Positions 26,861-36,675 of a stretch of DNA of 64,000 nt are shown in pieces. The stretch is from Methanolinea sp. (GTDB lineage Archaea > Halobacteriota > Methanomicrobia > Methanomicrobiales > Methanospirillaceae): the NCBI GenBank assembly GCA_030055515.1, contig JASFYI010000001.1, forward strand, positions 372,001 through 436,000. The letters run 5' to 3'. Each line of letters begins with the position of its first letter. The stretch's first letter is position 1. Position numbers and translations under genes: made by a program. The notes under the pieces are model-generated. The model was not told the origin of the DNA. It saw nothing but the letters and a program-made list of their open reading frames with translations, and searched no databases.

Positions 26861-27499
26861 CTAGTACTCCTGGAGGAACATCAGCGTCCCCGCGATGATG
26901 TCGTGGAGACCCTGCTTGTACCGCGTGAACGCGGGGATGAGGAACCCGACGAAGAGCGTCAGGAACGAGAGGAAGATGCAGAAGAACCGGAGGGTCCCCC
27001 TCGCGAAGGAGATCCTGTTGCCCCTCATGTCCGTCACGGCGATCCGCATCACCATCTTCCCGAGCGTCGCCTGGTTTGCGGAACTCTCGAGGTACGCAAA
27101 GTAAAACCACGGGATGAGGATGAAGAAGAGCCCGACGAAGATGATGACCTGGGTGGGGAGGAGGGCGTGGACGACGTTCCCGTACGCGTCCGTGCGGGGG
27201 ATGCGGAGGTAGTACTGGTAGAGCATGACCACCGCCTCGGAGAGGGGACTCGGTTTCTGGAAGATCCACGAGACAACCGTGACGATCCCCGCGGCGAAGA
27301 TGTCGAAGATGAGGAGGAAGAATATGTCGAGGATCCCCGCGCCAATCCTCCTCGGGAGGCTCGCGTACTTCTCCGTGGTGATCTCCCCCACCCTCTTGCG
27401 GAGAACGGCCCTCGGGGGAGCGATCTTCAGGTCTGCACCGCACCACTGGCAGTAACGCCCCCCTGATTCCGTTTCCCTCCCGCACTTCGGACAGAACAT
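26861..27499 (-). CDS. Zinc-ribbon RDD family membrane protein
   Basis: A 212-residue protein. It opens with a zinc ribbon (MFCPKCGRETESGGRYCQWC) followed by an RDD domain. RDD hallmarks are LPRRIGAGILDIFFLL with the Arg and Asp, NQATLGKMVMRIAVTD, and the C-terminal QGLHDIIAGT. Three to four membrane helices are visible. RDD proteins are poorly understood membrane proteins, some linked to ion exchange or osmoadaptation. It is downstream of the ABC permease genes on the same strand, but 168 bases away. Confidence 0.85.
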   Translation of the reverse strand: MFCPKCGRETESGGRYCQWCGADLKIAPPRAVLRKRVGEITTEKYASLPRRIGAGILDIFFLLIFDIFAAGIVTVVSWIFQKPSPLSEAVVMLYQYYLRIPRTDAYGNVVHALLPTQVIIFVGLFFILIPWFYFAYLESSANQATLGKMVMRIAVTDMRGNRISFARGTLRFFCIFLSFLTLFVGFLIPAFTRYKQGLHDIIAGTLMFLQEY

Positions 27500-27667: not shown

Positions 27668-28744
27668 TCACTCTCCTCCCCTGCCCTGCAGCTTCCGTGC
27701 AGCCGCGTGTGTCGCGAGGGCAAGGACGATGCACGCGGCGAGTGCGAGGAGGAGGGCCGCGAACTGCGGGGGGGCAACCGTGCCGGTCGAAAGCTGCGCG
27801 ATTGCATTCAGCGGGTTCCCCGGGAAAGCGAGCGCGGCGAGCATGATCACGACGACAGCCGTGGAGAAGACGAACTGGGCCGATGTCCTCTCGCGGTAGA
27901 ACAGCGCCACGAGCGTTGCGAACAGGACGAGGACGAGCGACGTGGTTACCACGTGGGCCATGACCAGGGGGATGTTCTCGATGGCGATGCGGTTCAGCGA
28001 GAGGAGGGCGATCCACGTTCCCGCCTGGAGGGGGACGAGGAGGAGGCAGGCCGCGACCTTGCCCCAGACGACCTCGGGCATCGTCATCGGCGTCGAGAGG
28101 AGGGTCTCGAGGGTGTGGTGCTGGTACTCCTCGCAGACGAGGTCTATCACGAGGGCGGCCGAGATGATCGCGGGCATCATGAGGAGGAGGGGGACGAGGA
28201 GGCCGTAGATGAACTCGTAGAACCCCGGTCCCGACCTATCGGCAGGGAATTCGAGGGTCTCGGGAACGACGTCGAGGCGGGAGGCGCGCACGGTCCGCAG
28301 GAACTCCTCGTAGGCGAGGAATACCTCCTTCAGCTTCACGCTCACGATTGTGGACTGGATGTCGTTCTGGAGGACGTAGAGGGTGACCTTGACGGGCCCC
28401 GGCGAATCCGGGGGTATGGACGGCGCATACACGACCGCCGAGAGCTTGCGCTCCTTGAGCGCCCCGACCGCGTTCGCGAGGTCCATGGTGTACACCGAGA
28501 ATTGTCCGCTCTCCCGGAGGAGGCGCGCGAGATCCCCCTCCTGCCCGACGTAGCCGACCGGGTACTGGGTGCCCGGGAACCGCGCGAGCGCGGAGGGATC
28601 GTACATGGAGGTCAGGCCCACCATGAGGAACGAGGAGAAGAGAGCGACGAAGAGCTGGAGGAGGATCGCGAGTACTATCGTCCTCTCGTTCCCGAGGCTC
28701 CGCAGGTCCTTGGCCGCGACGAGGAGAACGTTCCTCCCGTTCAC
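27668..28744 (-). CDS. ABC-2 type transporter permease
   Basis: A 358-residue protein. It has one N-terminal membrane helix (ERTIVLAILLQLFVALFSSF), a ~150-residue extracytoplasmic domain, then five helices starting at FIYGLLVPLLLMMPAIISAALV. The segment CEEYQHHTLETLLSTPMT is the conserved cytoplasmic loop of ABC-2 permeases. It abuts the stop-to-start of the fused permease upstream, with no gap, and probably forms a heterodimer with it and with the divergent ATPase. The exported substrate is unknown. Confidence 0.88.
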   Translation of the reverse strand: MNGRNVLLVAAKDLRSLGNERTIVLAILLQLFVALFSSFLMVGLTSMYDPSALARFPGTQYPVGYVGQEGDLARLLRESGQFSVYTMDLANAVGALKERKLSAVVYAPSIPPDSPGPVKVTLYVLQNDIQSTIVSVKLKEVFLAYEEFLRTVRASRLDVVPETLEFPADRSGPGFYEFIYGLLVPLLLMMPAIISAALVIDLVCEEYQHHTLETLLSTPMTMPEVVWGKVAACLLLVPLQAGTWIALLSLNRIAIENIPLVMAHVVTTSLVLVLFATLVALFYRERTSAQFVFSTAVVVIMLAALAFPGNPLNAIAQLSTGTVAPPQFAALLLALAACIVLALATHAAARKLQGRGGE

Positions 28745-30562
28745 CTACATCAGCCCCCCGATGACGACGAAGTTGTACGCGCTGTGGACGAGGGTCGCAA
28801 TCGCTACTCCCGGGATGTACCCCCTCTCCCCGAGGAAGCTGACAGCGGATGCGAGGCAGAGCGTGCAGGCGAAGTGGAGGAGCAATGGGTACACGAGGAA
28901 ACCGGCAGTGAGGAAGAGGATGCTCCCGAAGAGGCTCTCCGTGATCTGGGCGAGCGTGACGAAGAGGAGGAGTTTCTCCGCGGCAAAGAAACCCGCGGCC
29001 GTCGCGAGCGAGGAGAGCACGGCGAACCGGAGGGATGCGCGCCTGCCACCGTCGAGGACGAGGGTCGCGACGCCGACGGACTTTGCGATCTCCTCGACGC
29101 ACGCGGCAGACACGATGAGGATTGCGAGGGAGAGTGGCATGGGGAGGTTGAAGACGAGGACGAGGAGGAGCATCTGGACCATGAAGACGAAAGGCACGAG
29201 GAACGCGCTCACCGAAAAGACGGAGAGGTACGGGTGGGCCGGGGAGAGGGAGGTGGCGACGAAATCCCTCGCGCGGCGCGCGATACCGGAGAGGGAAAAG
29301 AGGCGCTCCTCGCGGAAGTTCACGATCCCCACGTAGAAGAGTATCGTGCTCGTGAGGAAGAACAGGGAGGTCGAGTAGAGGTACTGGCTCGCGGTGTACC
29401 CCTCGCCCTGCAGCGCGAGCACGATGAGGGTGAGGGGCGAGACGATGCTGATGACGTGGACGTGGGCAAAGATGCTCGGGAAGAAGAGGTACGAGGTCAC
29501 GACCGTGGAGAAGAAGATGGAGACGAACGAGAGTTCCTTGAAGCTCCGCGATACCATCCCTATGACGAGGGCACTTGAGAGGAAGAAGAGGATGACGGGG
29601 ACGAGGGGGACGAGGACCGAGAGCGGCGCCCGGATGTACGTCGCGATCGCCGCGCAGAGGAGGAGCATCCCGCAGAAGTAGGGGAGTGCTTTCCCCACGA
29701 CGATCGCCGCCGCCCCCGCGGGGCTCGAGAGGAGAGGTTCGCCCCTCCGCTCGACCCTCTCCTGCATGATGCTCATCATGTAGAATTGCGCGGAGAAGTA
29801 GAGCGGGAAGATGAAGAGGAAGACGAGGATGATCGAGTCGAAGGGGAGGGGGGGCGAGAGCTGCGAGGGTGTCCTGTAGGAGCCGAACGGGCTTTTCGGC
29901 CCCACGAGCTCGGTGTAACGGGCGAATTCGCCTCTCTGTTCCCATGACTGCCGGAGACCCTGCCGGAGGTCCTCGACCGGGACGGGAATGTCGGGCGACG
30001 GGGGCACGACCTCTCCCGGCGGGTTTTCCGGGACGGGGGGCCTGTCGGGCTGGGGCAGCGCCGATATCTGCCTGCCCGACTGCGTCGCGGAAAAGTCAAG
30101 CTCGCTCTTCACCTCCTGCACTTCTATCCAGAGGGGATAGGCCGCGAAGAGATCCTGCTGGGCGCCGTATACGGAGTCGAGGTACCTCTGGTAGTCGCGC
30201 TCGAGCGTTTTCAGCGCGGCCCTCCCCTTCTCGGTGTCGTGGACGTACACATCAGACCCGAGGACGATGATGTCGAACATCCCGCGGTTCGCGAAGAGGG
30301 ATTCCCTCTCCCCCGCGAGGAGGTCGAAGCGTGCATCCCCCCCGACGATATCCGCGAGCAGGCGTGGATTGTCGGTCCCGAGCTTGTAGATCCCGTCCTG
30401 GATGTGGAGACCGCGTTCCGCGGCAAACCCGGTCACCACGACGAGGCAGACGACGAGGACGATTGCAACGGGGAGCGTGTGCCTCCCCATCACGCCGAAC
30501 GTGCGGCGGACCTCCCACCGGGCGATGGTTGCCACGTGGGAGAGAAATGCACTCGGGTTCAC
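28745..30562 (-). CDS. ABC-2 permease fused to a PrsW-like membrane protease domain
   Basis: A 605-residue protein. Residues ~1-400 form an ABC-2 permease: an N-terminal helix, a Pro-rich external domain, then helices with the cytoplasmic loop QERVERRGEPLLSSP. Residues ~450-605 form a second membrane domain with the four PrsW-type motifs: VEEIAK (Glu490, Glu491, Lys494), GFFAAEKLL, LLLHFACT and LVHSAYNF. These match the EExxK, FAxxE, H and HxxxN motifs of putative metal-dependent or glutamic membrane proteases. The gene is directly upstream of a second permease. See findings. Confidence 0.75.
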   Translation of the reverse strand: MNPSAFLSHVATIARWEVRRTFGVMGRHTLPVAIVLVVCLVVVTGFAAERGLHIQDGIYKLGTDNPRLLADIVGGDARFDLLAGERESLFANRGMFDIIVLGSDVYVHDTEKGRAALKTLERDYQRYLDSVYGAQQDLFAAYPLWIEVQEVKSELDFSATQSGRQISALPQPDRPPVPENPPGEVVPPSPDIPVPVEDLRQGLRQSWEQRGEFARYTELVGPKSPFGSYRTPSQLSPPLPFDSIILVFLFIFPLYFSAQFYMMSIMQERVERRGEPLLSSPAGAAAIVVGKALPYFCGMLLLCAAIATYIRAPLSVLVPLVPVILFFLSSALVIGMVSRSFKELSFVSIFFSTVVTSYLFFPSIFAHVHVISIVSPLTLIVLALQGEGYTASQYLYSTSLFFLTSTILFYVGIVNFREERLFSLSGIARRARDFVATSLSPAHPYLSVFSVSAFLVPFVFMVQMLLLVLVFNLPMPLSLAILIVSAACVEEIAKSVGVATLVLDGGRRASLRFAVLSSLATAAGFFAAEKLLLFVTLAQITESLFGSILFLTAGFLVYPLLLHFACTLCLASAVSFLGERGYIPGVAIATLVHSAYNFVVIGGLM

Positions 30563-30643
30563 GGCCTTCCGGAAATAGGGTAGCTTCAGTACCTATAATA
30601 CGTTGCAGGTCGAGGAATCTGGACAGGCACTCCGCCCAATGAC
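30563..30643. promoter_or_regulatory. Divergent promoter between ABC permease operon and ATPase
   Basis: The 81-base spacer holds one clear TATA-like block, TACCTATAATACG (30590-30602). It is placed about 25-47 bases from both starts, so it could drive both directions. No obvious operator repeat is seen. Confidence 0.4.
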
Positions 30644-31531
30644 ATGATTTCCGCACGGAATCTCTCGAAAACCTACGGGAGGACACAGGTTCTCCGGGAT
30701 ATCAGCTTCGACCTTGCCGAGGGGAAGATACTCGGGATCATAGGCCACAACGGCGCAGGAAAGACGACTCTCCTCAAGATCCTCGCGGGTCTGGTCGAGC
30801 CATCTTCCGGCGACATCCTCGTGAACGGGGAGAGCATCCTGCACAATCCCGACGGGTACAAGGAGATGGTCGGGTACCTCCCGGAAGAGTCGCGCCTCTA
30901 CGAGACGATGAAGGTGGACGATTACCTCACGTTTTTCGGGGAGATCTACGGGATGGACCGTGCATCGATAAGGAGGCGGAGCAGGGAACTCCTCGAATGG
31001 CTCTCGCTCAACGACGGGGGAAAGAAGATGGGCGAGTTTTCGAAGGGTATGAAGAGGAAGGTCGCGATAGCCCGCTCGCTCATCCACGACCCCTCCATCC
31101 TCATCTACGACGAGGCGACCTCCGGGCTCGACCCGATGACGTCGCGCCAGATCGTCGATCTCCTCCGGGATTTGAGGGCGAAGGGGAAAACCATCGTCCT
31201 CTCGGCGCACAACCTCTACCAGGTCGAGGCGATCTGCGACCTCATCATGATCCTCCGCCGCGGCCACCGCGTCGCCCTCGGGACGCTCTCCGACCTGCGG
31301 GAGACATACGGGTCTGTCTCCTACTCGCTGTACTTCACCATCCGCGACCCGGCGCTCCTCTCGGGTGTCGCCCGCTACACCCACGAGGGCGGGTACTTCC
31401 GCGTCGATGTCCCCGACGTGAGGGAGATGAATAGGATCGCGCAGGAGGTCACTTCGGCCGGGGGGACGGTCGAGCGGGTGGAATCGCACTACCCGAGCCT
31501 CGAGGAGATGCTCGCGAAGATCGGGGCGTGA
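30644..31531 (+). CDS. ABC transporter ATP-binding protein
   Basis: A 295-residue protein. Walker A is GHNGAGKTTLLK, the Q-loop region is VGYLPEESRLYE, the signature is FSKGMKRKVAIARS, Walker B is ILIYDEATSGLD and the switch His is in LSAHN. The signature has FSKGM rather than LSGGQ, common in NatA/CcmA-type exporters. The C-terminal ~80 residues form an accessory domain. It is divergent from the two permease genes, and the three would make one exporter. Confidence 0.92.
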   Translation: MISARNLSKTYGRTQVLRDISFDLAEGKILGIIGHNGAGKTTLLKILAGLVEPSSGDILVNGESILHNPDGYKEMVGYLPEESRLYETMKVDDYLTFFGEIYGMDRASIRRRSRELLEWLSLNDGGKKMGEFSKGMKRKVAIARSLIHDPSILIYDEATSGLDPMTSRQIVDLLRDLRAKGKTIVLSAHNLYQVEAICDLIMILRRGHRVALGTLSDLRETYGSVSYSLYFTIRDPALLSGVARYTHEGGYFRVDVPDVREMNRIAQEVTSAGGTVERVESHYPSLEEMLAKIGA

Positions 31532-31597
31532 GGTTTGCCAACGGCGAGTGGCAACGATCCCCGTGGTACCCCCGAAATGGATTGAAAAGGAGAATAG

Positions 31598-31671
31598 CGG
31601 GCCTGAAGGGATTTGAACCCTTGACCTACGGATTAAGAGTCCGTCGCTCTTCCGAACTAAGCTACAAGCCC
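31598..31671 (-). tRNA. trnK: tRNA-Lys (anticodon CTT)
   Basis: The reverse strand folds as a 74-base tRNA. The acceptor GGGCTTG pairs with CAGGCCC (one G-U), with G as discriminator. The anticodon stem is ACGGA/TCCGT around loop CTCTTAA, giving anticodon CTT, and the T arm contains GGTTCAAATCC. There is no intron and CCA is not encoded. A TTTATG box lies about 35 bases upstream of the 5' end. Confidence 0.96.
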
Positions 31672-31816: not shown

Positions 31817-33280
31817 ATGCAGAGGGCGGGCGAAGGGGAGAGGGGAACGGCCGCGCGCTACGCGGTCCTCGGCTGCGGGAGCACGGGATACCACGTCGCG
31901 TGCGAACTCGCCGCGAGGGGAGAGAGGGTCATCGTCTGCGACATCGACGCCTCGCGGGTGAGGGAACTCCGCGAGCAGCGGTTCGACGCCGTCCAAAAGG
32001 ACATCTCCGACCCGAATTTCCTCTCTGACCTGCCGGGTTTCGAGGTGGCGTTCGTCCTCTCGGGAGACAACAAGGTGAACACCGCTGCCGTCCGGACCCT
32101 CCGGCAGGCAATCCCCGGCCTGCACATCGTCGCCCGCGCGACAGACCCGATCGGCGCGGGACTCCTCTCTTCCGCCGGTGCAGACCTCGTCCTCTACCCC
32201 CAGCAGGTCGTCGCGAAGGCCGCCATCCGCCAGGCGGACAAGATCCACTCCGCGGGCCTCGCGCGCAGGCTCTACAACCTCCTCTCGGGTCTCGAGGGGA
32301 CGCTCGGGATCATCACCCACAATAACCCTGACCCGGATGCCATCGGGAGCGCGATGGCGCTCTCTGCCATCGCGAAGAGCGCGAACCCCCAGAAACTGAA
32401 GTGCCGGATCTTCTACGACGGGATCATCGGCCACCAGGAGAACAGGACCATGGTCAACCTGCTCGACATCAAGATGGAAAAGTTCGATCCCCGGGCCGTG
32501 CAGGACTGCACGCACCTCGCCCTCGTGGACAGCTCGGGGCCGGGCCTGAACAACCCCCTCTCCCCGCGGACCCGGGTCTCCATCATCATCGACCACCACA
32601 GGGACGGGCACGGGCAGGAGAGTGCCACGTTCTCCGACGTGCGGCCGGGCCTCGGCGCGACTGCGAGCATCCTGGCCCAGTACCTCCAGGAACTCGACAT
32701 CCCGGTCGACAGGAACGTCGCGACGGGGCTCCTGTACGGCATAAGGGCTGACACGAAGGAATTCCGCCGGAATGTCACCCCCCAGGACCTCTCCAACGCC
32801 GCGTTCCTCCTCCCCCTGACCGATGCCGAAATCCTCGACCAGATCATGTCCCCTTCCCTCTCCCAGGAGACGCTCGACGTGCTCGGCGCCGCGATCAAGA
32901 ACCGGCACATCAGGAGCGGCTACCTCTTCTCCAACGTGGGGTATGTACACAACCGCGACTCACTCCCCCAGGCCGCGGACCTGCTCATCTCCCTCGAGGG
33001 GGTGAACACTGCCCTCGTGTACGGGATCACGGACGACGCGATTGTCGTTTCTGCGCGCAACAGGGACATCCGTCTCCACATCGGAAACGTCCTCAAGGAG
33101 GCCTTCGGGGACATCGGCGACGCGGGGGGGCACCCGAACATGGCAGCCGCGACGATCCCCCTGTTTTACTTCCGCCACGTGAAGGACAAGGAGGGTCTCC
33201 TCTCCCTCGTGATGGACCCCCTCCTCTCCCGGTTCATGGGCCTCGTGGGACTCGAGCCGGAGTCTGGCCATGGAATTTGA
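31817..33280 (+). CDS. RCK/TrkA-N domain fused to DHH-DHHA1 phosphoesterase
   Basis: A 487-residue protein. Residues ~12-140 are a Rossmann-type TrkA-N domain (YAVLGCGSTGYHVACELAAR, then VIVCDIDASRV). Residues ~165-330 are a DHH domain with THNNPDPDAIGSAMA, LVDSSG and IIDHHRDGHG. The C-terminal DHHA1 part ends with DAGGHPNMAAATIP. The catalytic Asp/His residues look intact. Relatives degrade nanoRNA or cyclic di-AMP; the RCK fusion hints at a nucleotide-gated phosphodiesterase. A box A near 31789 lies about 28 bases before the ATG, so the mRNA is probably leaderless. Confidence 0.85.
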   Translation: MQRAGEGERGTAARYAVLGCGSTGYHVACELAARGERVIVCDIDASRVRELREQRFDAVQKDISDPNFLSDLPGFEVAFVLSGDNKVNTAAVRTLRQAIPGLHIVARATDPIGAGLLSSAGADLVLYPQQVVAKAAIRQADKIHSAGLARRLYNLLSGLEGTLGIITHNNPDPDAIGSAMALSAIAKSANPQKLKCRIFYDGIIGHQENRTMVNLLDIKMEKFDPRAVQDCTHLALVDSSGPGLNNPLSPRTRVSIIIDHHRDGHGQESATFSDVRPGLGATASILAQYLQELDIPVDRNVATGLLYGIRADTKEFRRNVTPQDLSNAAFLLPLTDAEILDQIMSPSLSQETLDVLGAAIKNRHIRSGYLFSNVGYVHNRDSLPQAADLLISLEGVNTALVYGITDDAIVVSARNRDIRLHIGNVLKEAFGDIGDAGGHPNMAAATIPLFYFRHVKDKEGLLSLVMDPLLSRFMGLVGLEPESGHGI

Positions 33281-33884
33281 GGAGTGGGAACCGGTATACG
33301 AGGAGATACTCGAGTACTTCGGCTTTGACAGGGCGGAGGACGAGAGGGCTGCAGCCCTCCTCTCGACCCTCCTCGAACGCGATGACCTCGACCTCCTCCA
33401 TGGGATCACGAGGGGGAGGGAGGTGTGCGTGTGCGGCAACGGCCCCTCCCTCCCGAGGGAGATCCCGGGTGTGGGCGGGTGCGTGTTCGCCGCCGACGCG
33501 GCAGCCCTCGTCCTGCAGTCCCACGGGATACTCCCGGACGCGATCTTCACGGACCTCGACGGTGCAACCGAGGAATTCGTGGAGATGAACAGGAGGGGAA
33601 CGGTCATCGTGGTCCATGCCCACGGCGACAACATCCCCCTCATCAGGCTCTGGGTCCCGAGGTTCCGCGGGCCCGTCGTGGGGACGACACAGGCAAGGCC
33701 GCTCCCCCGCGTGCACAACTTCGGGGGATTCACGGACGGGGACCGCGCCGTCTTCGCCGCGAAGGCACTCGGCGCTGCGCGCGTCACCCTCGCCGGGTTC
33801 GACCTCGACGACCCGCGGGTGGACAGGGTGAAGAAGGCGAAACTCCGCTGGGCAAAGCGCCTGCTCGCGATGGTCTACCCATGA
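33270..33884 (+). CDS. mptE: 6-hydroxymethyl-7,8-dihydropterin pyrophosphokinase MptE-like
   Basis: A 204-residue protein. The DUF115/MptE pattern is clear: VCVCGNGPSLPREIP, FAADAAALVLQSHGILPDAI, FTDLDGATEEF, VVHAHGDNI and FGGFTDGDRAVFAAKALGA. MptE phosphorylates the pterin in tetrahydromethanopterin synthesis. The start overlaps the RCK-DHH gene by 11 bases, and the stop overlaps the next start by ATGA, so three genes form a coupled operon. Confidence 0.9.
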   Translation: MEFEEWEPVYEEILEYFGFDRAEDERAAALLSTLLERDDLDLLHGITRGREVCVCGNGPSLPREIPGVGGCVFAADAAALVLQSHGILPDAIFTDLDGATEEFVEMNRRGTVIVVHAHGDNIPLIRLWVPRFRGPVVGTTQARPLPRVHNFGGFTDGDRAVFAAKALGAARVTLAGFDLDDPRVDRVKKAKLRWAKRLLAMVYP

Positions 33885-35541: not shown

Positions 35542-36675
35542 CTATATCTCGCGAAGCTCGATGACCTTCAGGATATCCGTCTTCGTCACGATCCCGACGA
35601 GGCGGTCGCCTGCCATGACGGGGAGGCGCCCGATGTTCCTCGCGGTCATCGTCTTCAATGCGTCGATGACCGGGGCCTCCGGGGGGAGCGTGACCACGTC
35701 GCGCGTCATCACGTCCCTGACCTGCATCGCCTCGCGGTCGATGGGCGAGACGCGGTGGATGTCGGCGAGCGTGACCATCCCCACGAGGTACCCCCTGTCC
35801 GTCACGGGGAACCCGAGGTGCTTCGTCACGTACATGAGGTCGATCACCTCGCGAATGGGGGTTTCGGGGGTGACCGAGATCACGGGGCTCGACATGATGT
35901 CCCCCACCGAGACGTCCCTTAAGAGGAACGTGTACTTTATCGCGTGGAATTCCTGCGTCGCCCCGATGTAGATGAAGAGCGCGATCAGGATGAGGAGGGG
36001 GGAGAAGAGGAGGACCCCCACGATGCCGAAGATCACCGCGAACGCCTTCCCCACGTCCGCCGCGATCCGCGTCGCCTCCGGGAGCGGCATGCGCGACGCG
36101 AGGTACGCCCTGAGCACCCGGCCGCCGTCCATGGGGAACGCGGGGAGGAGGTTGAAGAGGCAGAGGAAGACGTTCAGCAGGCCGAGGTAGGAGAAGGTGA
36201 AGGTGAGCAGGCCCAAGACCGGGCCACCCGCGAGGGTTGCATCGACGAGGTACACCGCGGCGATGAACGAGATGCCGATGCCGAGGCTCGTGAGGGGGCC
36301 GACGAGCGCCATGGGGAGCTCGACGCCCGGCTCGGGCGAGCTCTCCTCCATGGAAGCGACGCCCCCGAAGACGAGGAGGGTGATGCTGTGGATGGGGACG
36401 CCCCTCCTCATCGCGACGATGCAGTGCGCGATCTCGTGGAGGAGGACGCCTCCAAAGAGCCCGAGCGCGAGGAGGAGCCCGATGATGTACGGGTTGTATC
36501 CGGCCACGAGGTAGGTCGTGTCAATCGAGACGCCGAATACAGACGAGAGGATTCCGACCGTGGGTACTATCTGGTTCCCGATTATCCATGCAAAAACGGG
36601 GATGATGACGAGGAAAGTCCAGTGGATCTGGATCGGAATACCAAAAATGGACCCGATTTTGAACGACCCGTCCAT
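35542..36675 (-). CDS. Site-2 protease (M50) with two CBS domains
   Basis: A 377-residue protein. The zinc motif LLHEIAHCIVAMRRG sits in a membrane helix (~residues 79-93), and the second motif LLPAFPMDGGRVLRA provides the Asp ligand. Six membrane helices are likely. The C-terminal ~120 residues are a CBS pair (VGDIMSSPVISVTPETP and VRDVMTRDVVTLPPEAP), a nucleotide-sensing module. It is a regulated intramembrane protease of the S2P-CBS group common in archaea. A TATA block on the minus strand, ATATATACTA, lies ~31 bases upstream. Confidence 0.93.
   Translation of the reverse strand: MDGSFKIGSIFGIPIQIHWTFLVIIPVFAWIIGNQIVPTVGILSSVFGVSIDTTYLVAGYNPYIIGLLLALGLFGGVLLHEIAHCIVAMRRGVPIHSITLLVFGGVASMEESSPEPGVELPMALVGPLTSLGIGISFIAAVYLVDATLAGGPVLGLLTFTFSYLGLLNVFLCLFNLLPAFPMDGGRVLRAYLASRMPLPEATRIAADVGKAFAVIFGIVGVLLFSPLLILIALFIYIGATQEFHAIKYTFLLRDVSVGDIMSSPVISVTPETPIREVIDLMYVTKHLGFPVTDRGYLVGMVTLADIHRVSPIDREAMQVRDVMTRDVVTLPPEAPVIDALKTMTARNIGRLPVMAGDRLVGIVTKTDILKVIELREI

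Follow-up and report, generated by a model that had tools for sequence, protein, structure and literature searches.

ABC exporters and intramembrane proteases that handle hydrophobic peptides between them have been described in bacteria as EcsAB/PptAB and RasP/Eep (PMC7157817, PMC2996298). In Staphylococcus aureus, peptides derived from lipoprotein signals are made and exported only if both Eep and EcsAB are present (PMC7157817), and loss of Ecs inhibits intramembrane proteolysis, with a membrane 'cleaning function' having been proposed (PMC2996298). In these bacterial systems, exporter and protease are encoded by separate genes and the protease belongs to the site-2 (M50) class, making them analogues only of the archaeal locus described below. 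A peptidase built into an ABC exporter is found in the C39 bacteriocin exporters, in which a cytosolic cysteine peptidase acts in another type of exporter and dedicated, leader-bearing substrates are encoded alongside; the archaeal locus shares none of these traits. Judged by its name and length, the family NF041647 (ABC permease/CPBP) follows the same principle, with an ABC-2 permease and a protease of the CPBP superfamily in one protein; the idea of such a union is already catalogued, although we know of no function for this family. To our knowledge, little has been established about the way in which archaea dispose of cleaved signal peptides and fragments of membrane proteins.

The window, a stretch of 64,000 nucleotides from Methanolinea sp., encodes a protein in which an ABC-2 permease half is joined to a membrane-embedded domain of the PrsW clade (Table 1). 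Re-reading of the sequence returned the fused open reading frame (ORF) with the position, strand, length and motifs given to it in the first-pass annotation; the C-terminal domain is likewise present, its length being nearer 160 residues (446–605) than the 155 first estimated, and its second motif, originally written FAAE, is better described as FxxxEK.

Table 1 Features of the permease–protease locus. Positions count from the first nucleotide of the window.
Feature	Position	Strand	Length or basis
Permease–PrsW fusion	28745..30562	-	605 aa, GTG start
ABC-2 permease half, residues 1–417	29312..30562	-	PF12698, AF2 helices, Foldseek
PrsW-type domain, residues 446–605, five TM helices	28748..29227	-	
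Motif 1, EEIAK, residues 490–494	29081..29095	-	
Motif 2, GFFAAEK, residues 524–530	28973..28993	-	
Motif 3, His563 (PLLLH)	28874..28876	-	
Motif 4, HSAYN, residues 593–597	28772..28786	-	
Partner ABC-2 permease	27668..28744	-	358 aa; PF12698 E 2e-13
ABC ATPase, DrrA-like	30644..31531	+	295 aa; PF00005 E 9.6e-32, PF13732 (DrrA1-3_C) E 2.6e-8
Shared 81-bp intergenic region, permease operon/ATPase	30563..30643	.	sequence

The permease half consists of a first transmembrane helix (residues ~29–49), an extracytoplasmic region (~50–240) and five further helices. ABC2_membrane_3 (PF12698) matched it weakly in the window protein (residues 241–413, E 0.005), and the same model was found in 20 of 26 fusion homologs, at best with E 1.2e-17. 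Six transmembrane helices together with an extracytoplasmic region, and PF12698 in both the homologs and the partner protein, mark this half as that of an ABC-2 exporter. Although an AlphaFold model of the full-length fusion was mediocre (mean pLDDT 68.5), Foldseek placed its permease half near ABC-2/ABCG-type exporters, with probabilities of 0.95–0.99 but E > 0.05. Homolog searches yielded 104 distinct sequences, 101 of which cover the C-terminal domain; since these 101 share one architecture, an assembly or frameshift artefact is ruled out. One divergent homolog (G111:C47:2657-4219, locus L169) was reported with an internal TAG stop and is possibly a decaying copy or a sequencing error.

The fused subunit lies in a cassette of three genes. 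As first described, the partner permease follows without a gap, its GTG directly adjoining the fusion stop codon, and the ATPase gene is transcribed divergently, so that the fused half stands beside the components of a complete exporter. The ATPase, with its ABC_tran and DrrA1-3_C domains, is the cognate subunit beside the permeases. Both this DrrA-type ATPase and the ABC2_membrane_3 permeases are shared with exporters of the DrrAB/NatAB/NosFY type, which differ in having no protease domain, whereas the cassette has two unlike permeases, one of them bearing the protease-like domain. ATPase, permease–protease and permease occurred together in all loci compared; in diverse loci with enough uncut sequence, the two permease genes were invariably neighbours and the ATPase gene lay beside them. 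The ATPase gene is divergent in methanogen loci and co-directional in a group of loci from larger genomes of haloarchaeal type and in Haladaptatus. Two loci (L068 and L085) have an ORF inserted between ATPase and permeases, and the inserts are not common to both: that of L068 is lipoprotein-like, and that of L085 is a channel-like ORF that we take for MscS-type.

Scanning of the window fusion protein against Pfam and NCBIfam returned no protease model for its C terminus, as would be expected if this region consisted simply of extra permease helices with chance motifs. Comparison across homologs argues strongly against such an explanation. The 101 homologs covering the domain all retain E490, E491, K494, E529, K530, P559, H563 and H593, and 100 of them have F525; at position 597, 97 carry N and four carry D. 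Aligning 26 diverse homologs gave 35 invariant columns, of which 11 hold motif residues (E490, E491, K494, F525, E529, K530, P559, H563, H593, Y596 and N597), and the motif residues persist in homologs down to ~26% identity. The four PrsW motifs EExxK, FxxxE, H and HxxxN/D are thus all present and in order. When the C-terminal family was compared by profile–profile alignment (hhalign) with the phylum's standalone PrsW proteins, E was 1.1e-8 and 1.2e-7 and all four motifs lined up in register, as against E 0.036–0.046 for reversed-sequence controls, while the permease half aligned with standalone PrsW gave nothing. In a genome scan, the PrsW model PF13367 scored above its gathering cut-off (23.5 bits) on the same domain in ~13 sister fusions (including those of genomes G178, G110, G033, G158, G147, G116, G173, G137, G188, G131, G141 and G183); in single-protein scans of 26 fusion homologs, the model matched one (2.8e-6), and the window protein itself had no PF13367 match. 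Motif invariance, the hhalign alignment and PF13367 in sister fusions together show that the PrsW domain is more than a chance resemblance, supporting the originally proposed fusion of an ABC-2 permease half to a PrsW-clade domain. With family-level homology and motifs invariant throughout the phylum, the notion of extra permease helices alone is effectively refuted at the sequence level and barely credible.

Other protease families fit the domain less closely. Alignment with CPBP proteins of related genomes reached E 0.011 and spanned motif 1 only, and the motifs EExxK and FxxxE set the domain apart from CPBP/Rce1 (PF02517), which has EExxxR, FxxxH and HxxxN. The fused subunit had no match to NF041647; its partner permease weakly matched the permease part of that model, with 40 bits over positions 50–299, where membership needs >435 bits over 636 positions, and the protease of that family is of the CPBP type, not PrsW as in the fusion. 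A PDB sequence search, and an NCBIfam scan of the homologs, returned chance matches only.

PrsW proteins generally have about eight transmembrane helices. The five deduced for residues 446–605 from AlphaFold, hydropathy and the distribution of indels fall short of this number, and we conclude that this is a reduced PrsW-like domain, with the four motif helices retained, and not a canonical PrsW. It shares with PrsW (PF13367; B. subtilis PrsW, MEROPS M82) the four motifs in register, the membrane-embedded character and family-level homology, and differs in its helix number and its placement behind an ABC-2 permease; its second motif reads E-K where aligned archaeal standalone PrsW proteins have E-N. 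In the published PrsW model the motifs come in the same order: TMH3 carries EExxK, TMH5 a conserved His and TMH6 HxxxD, which together form one predicted site (PMC4602095). In four other loci (L104, L110, L123 and L128; family f14), standalone PrsW proteins of ~510–560 aa bear an additional N-terminal region that looks secreted, and several added helices.

Modelled alone, the C-terminal domain gave a confident helical structure (pLDDT 87.7, pTM 0.83), with a first helix lacking a motif (A) followed by the motif-bearing helices B, C, D and E. Its most sensible Foldseek neighbour, although weak, was APH-1 (probability 0.60, TM-score 0.46–0.52, E > 1), and Rce1 was absent from the matches to this domain. 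AlphaFold draws residues 557–601 as a single long helix joining D and E, which would part H563 from H593. Against this joining, hydropathy dips at residues 577–580, where indels also cluster, and the coevolving pairs C569–I588, C569–V592 and L560–L591 match a D–E hairpin. Coevolution register sums of 1083 (B–E), 1088–1095 (C–D) and 1155 (D–E) lie close to the values for motifs at one level (1083.5, 1092 and 1156), while that of B–C is off (~1010 compared with 1019.5). The signal was weak (Neff 62, with only two couplings above the shuffled maximum), and the side-by-side placement of motif residues in three of four helix pairs is suggestive only. These weak registers and the homology to PrsW are the basis for a predicted convergence of EExxK and HxxYN in one site, and they answer only indirectly the refuting condition set at first pass, namely a structure in which these residues do not converge.

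Lysine and arginine residues are concentrated in the B–C and D–E loops (2.0 and 1.65 per sequence), compared with 0.08 in A–B and 0.15 in C–D, which, by the positive-inside pattern, means that the permease half and linker end on the cytoplasmic side, whereas the protein's C terminus lies outside. Counted along the helices, motif residues lie ~6–13 positions from the outer helix end. In the best explanation, the four motifs would sit at much the same depth within the membrane's outer half.

The likeness to APH-1, a distant and non-catalytic fold relative of PrsW in gamma-secretase, raises the alternative that the PrsW fold has been kept as a scaffold for exporter assembly or lateral gating. Such scaffolds usually lose some of their catalytic motif residues, whereas here EExxK and both histidines are invariant and N597 changes only to D. 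B. subtilis PrsW itself has HxxxD (PMC4602095). We therefore regard a purely structural role as very doubtful; judged from its sequence, the motif set is conserved well enough for catalytic activity to be expected.

The fusion, its nearly unvarying motifs, its kinship with PrsW, and the existence and distribution of the three-gene cassette are established. From these we infer, as follows, that the domain is catalytic, which way transport runs, what the substrate is and that cutting is coupled to export. The complex would be a heterodimeric ABC-2 exporter, made up of two unlike permease halves and an ATPase homodimer, with one half ending in a catalytically active intramembrane protease of the PrsW type. 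The tethered protease would cut peptides embedded in the membrane, or proteins with a single span, within the outer half of the bilayer, and the neighbouring permease pair, providing an ATP-driven path, would pull the freed hydrophobic fragments from the bilayer and extrude them. We assign this reading a probability of roughly 0.45. The likeliest substrates would be of a housekeeping kind, for instance remnants of signal peptides or transmembrane segments whose genes lie elsewhere, and the working mode may resemble that of RasP/Eep with EcsAB/PptAB, in one polypeptide and with another class of protease.

A peptide or lipidated substrate had been suggested at the outset, with adjoining small genes as candidates. 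Clustering of ORFs from 31 diverse loci revealed no small or substrate gene conserved beside the cassette, whose three genes alone were common, and the proposal of a lipidated or dedicated peptide substrate is not borne out by these loci. Other recurrent neighbours are confined to the order and to at most 11 loci, namely a TrkA-DHH protein, an MptE-like protein, an RDD protein and IlvD. In the window, the TrkA_N-DHH-DHHA1 gene (31817–33280, +) overlaps the MptE-like gene (33270–33884, +), a pair seen in ~11 loci of the order, and a zinc-ribbon RDD membrane protein (26861–27499, -) adjoins the cassette, an arrangement found in eight loci, all of them from close relatives. Since nothing beyond the cassette is conserved alongside it across the phylum, a dedicated bacteriocin-like system, with leader-bearing substrates as in C39 exporters, is unlikely; the missing substrate gene and the single copy count instead for a housekeeping system.

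The same survey bears on regulated proteolysis, in which the ABC module would act as a sensor or gate, ATP-driven movement would turn the protease on with no product exported, and the PrsW domain would make the site-1 cut in a membrane-anchored regulator. ECF-type sigma/anti-sigma pairs are, as far as we know, not an archaeal system, and in the 31 loci the cassette has no conserved regulator gene as a neighbour. For this alternative speaks the founding member, B. subtilis PrsW, described as the site-1 protease of the anti-sigma factor RsiW (PMC4602095, PMC9263693, PMC3482391), and so does a standalone PrsW in the source genome, which indicates that the family is also used separately. On balance, we consider regulated proteolysis unlikely. 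That standalone protein (G000:C1:102423-102953; locus L129, 1414-2091; 225 aa, PF13367 E 3e-39) is encoded outside the window, so that fused and free PrsW coexist in this genome, in which no CPBP match was found.

Alternatively, the fusion could be a sorting or maturation enzyme that trims a C-terminal tag or signal from surface or lipid-linked proteins during export. CPBP proteases are known from bacteriocin loci, which would be in keeping with such a function. A precedent is the myxosortase MrtX, a related CPBP protease that cleaves MYXO-CTERM tags (PMC11980579). No tag family is linked to the fusion, however, and its occurrence (53 of 100 genomes) shows no obvious match to that of archaeosortase (PF09721, 59 of 100), a comparison tempered by the failure of PF09721 to detect the control H. 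volcanii, in which ArtA is known. We consider a sorting role quite unlikely.

Of 59 good genomes in the family, 53 encode a full-length homolog, and single-sequence search detected one in 223 of 393 genomes, small and large, sampled across the phylum. The survey of its frequency proposed at first pass was carried out by profile search, which detected the fusion in 53 of 100 sampled phylum genomes, in a single copy wherever present; its absence from the other 47 implies that it is not universally required. Bearers include Methanolinea, Methanoregula, Methanoculleus and Methanocalculus strains or metagenome-assembled genomes, and Haladaptatus; fusion-bearing families f8 and f9/f17/f20/f22 are probably Methanosarcina-like, Archaeoglobus-like and haloarchaeal. 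Among 72,556 records, one plasmid match was found, and it is haloarchaeal. The fusion is ancient, and its vertical, single-copy, phylum-wide spread points to a housekeeping function more than to a system of the bacteriocin kind.

Present annotation hides the protease domain, the public record of one homolog being labelled just 'ABC transporter permease subunit'. The PrsW passages of a comparative-genomic study report fusions to toxins and signalling domains and name no ABC permease (PMC3482391); no description of a PrsW–ABC fusion was found in the literature searched, and one may exist outside that scope. Retained in both methanogens and haloarchaea, the protease–exporter fusion presents itself as a direct candidate for the removal of signal peptides and membrane fragments. 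It would also be a second, independent case in which a CPBP/PrsW-superfamily protease has been joined to an ABC-2 permease, suggesting that the coupling of cutting to export is a recurrent solution. That it represents a new, ancient class of archaeal machine, an exporter–protease complex that cuts transmembrane peptides and uses ATP to extrude the pieces, clearing or secreting signal-peptide or transmembrane remnants, is a somewhat unlikely extension.

Two further features lie near the cassette. A tRNA-Lys (ctt) gene (31597–31671, -) is located between the ATPase and TrkA-DHH genes, and a site-2-type protease with Peptidase_M50 and two CBS domains is encoded ~5 kb away (35542–36675, -), with homologs near the cassette in only some loci of the order.
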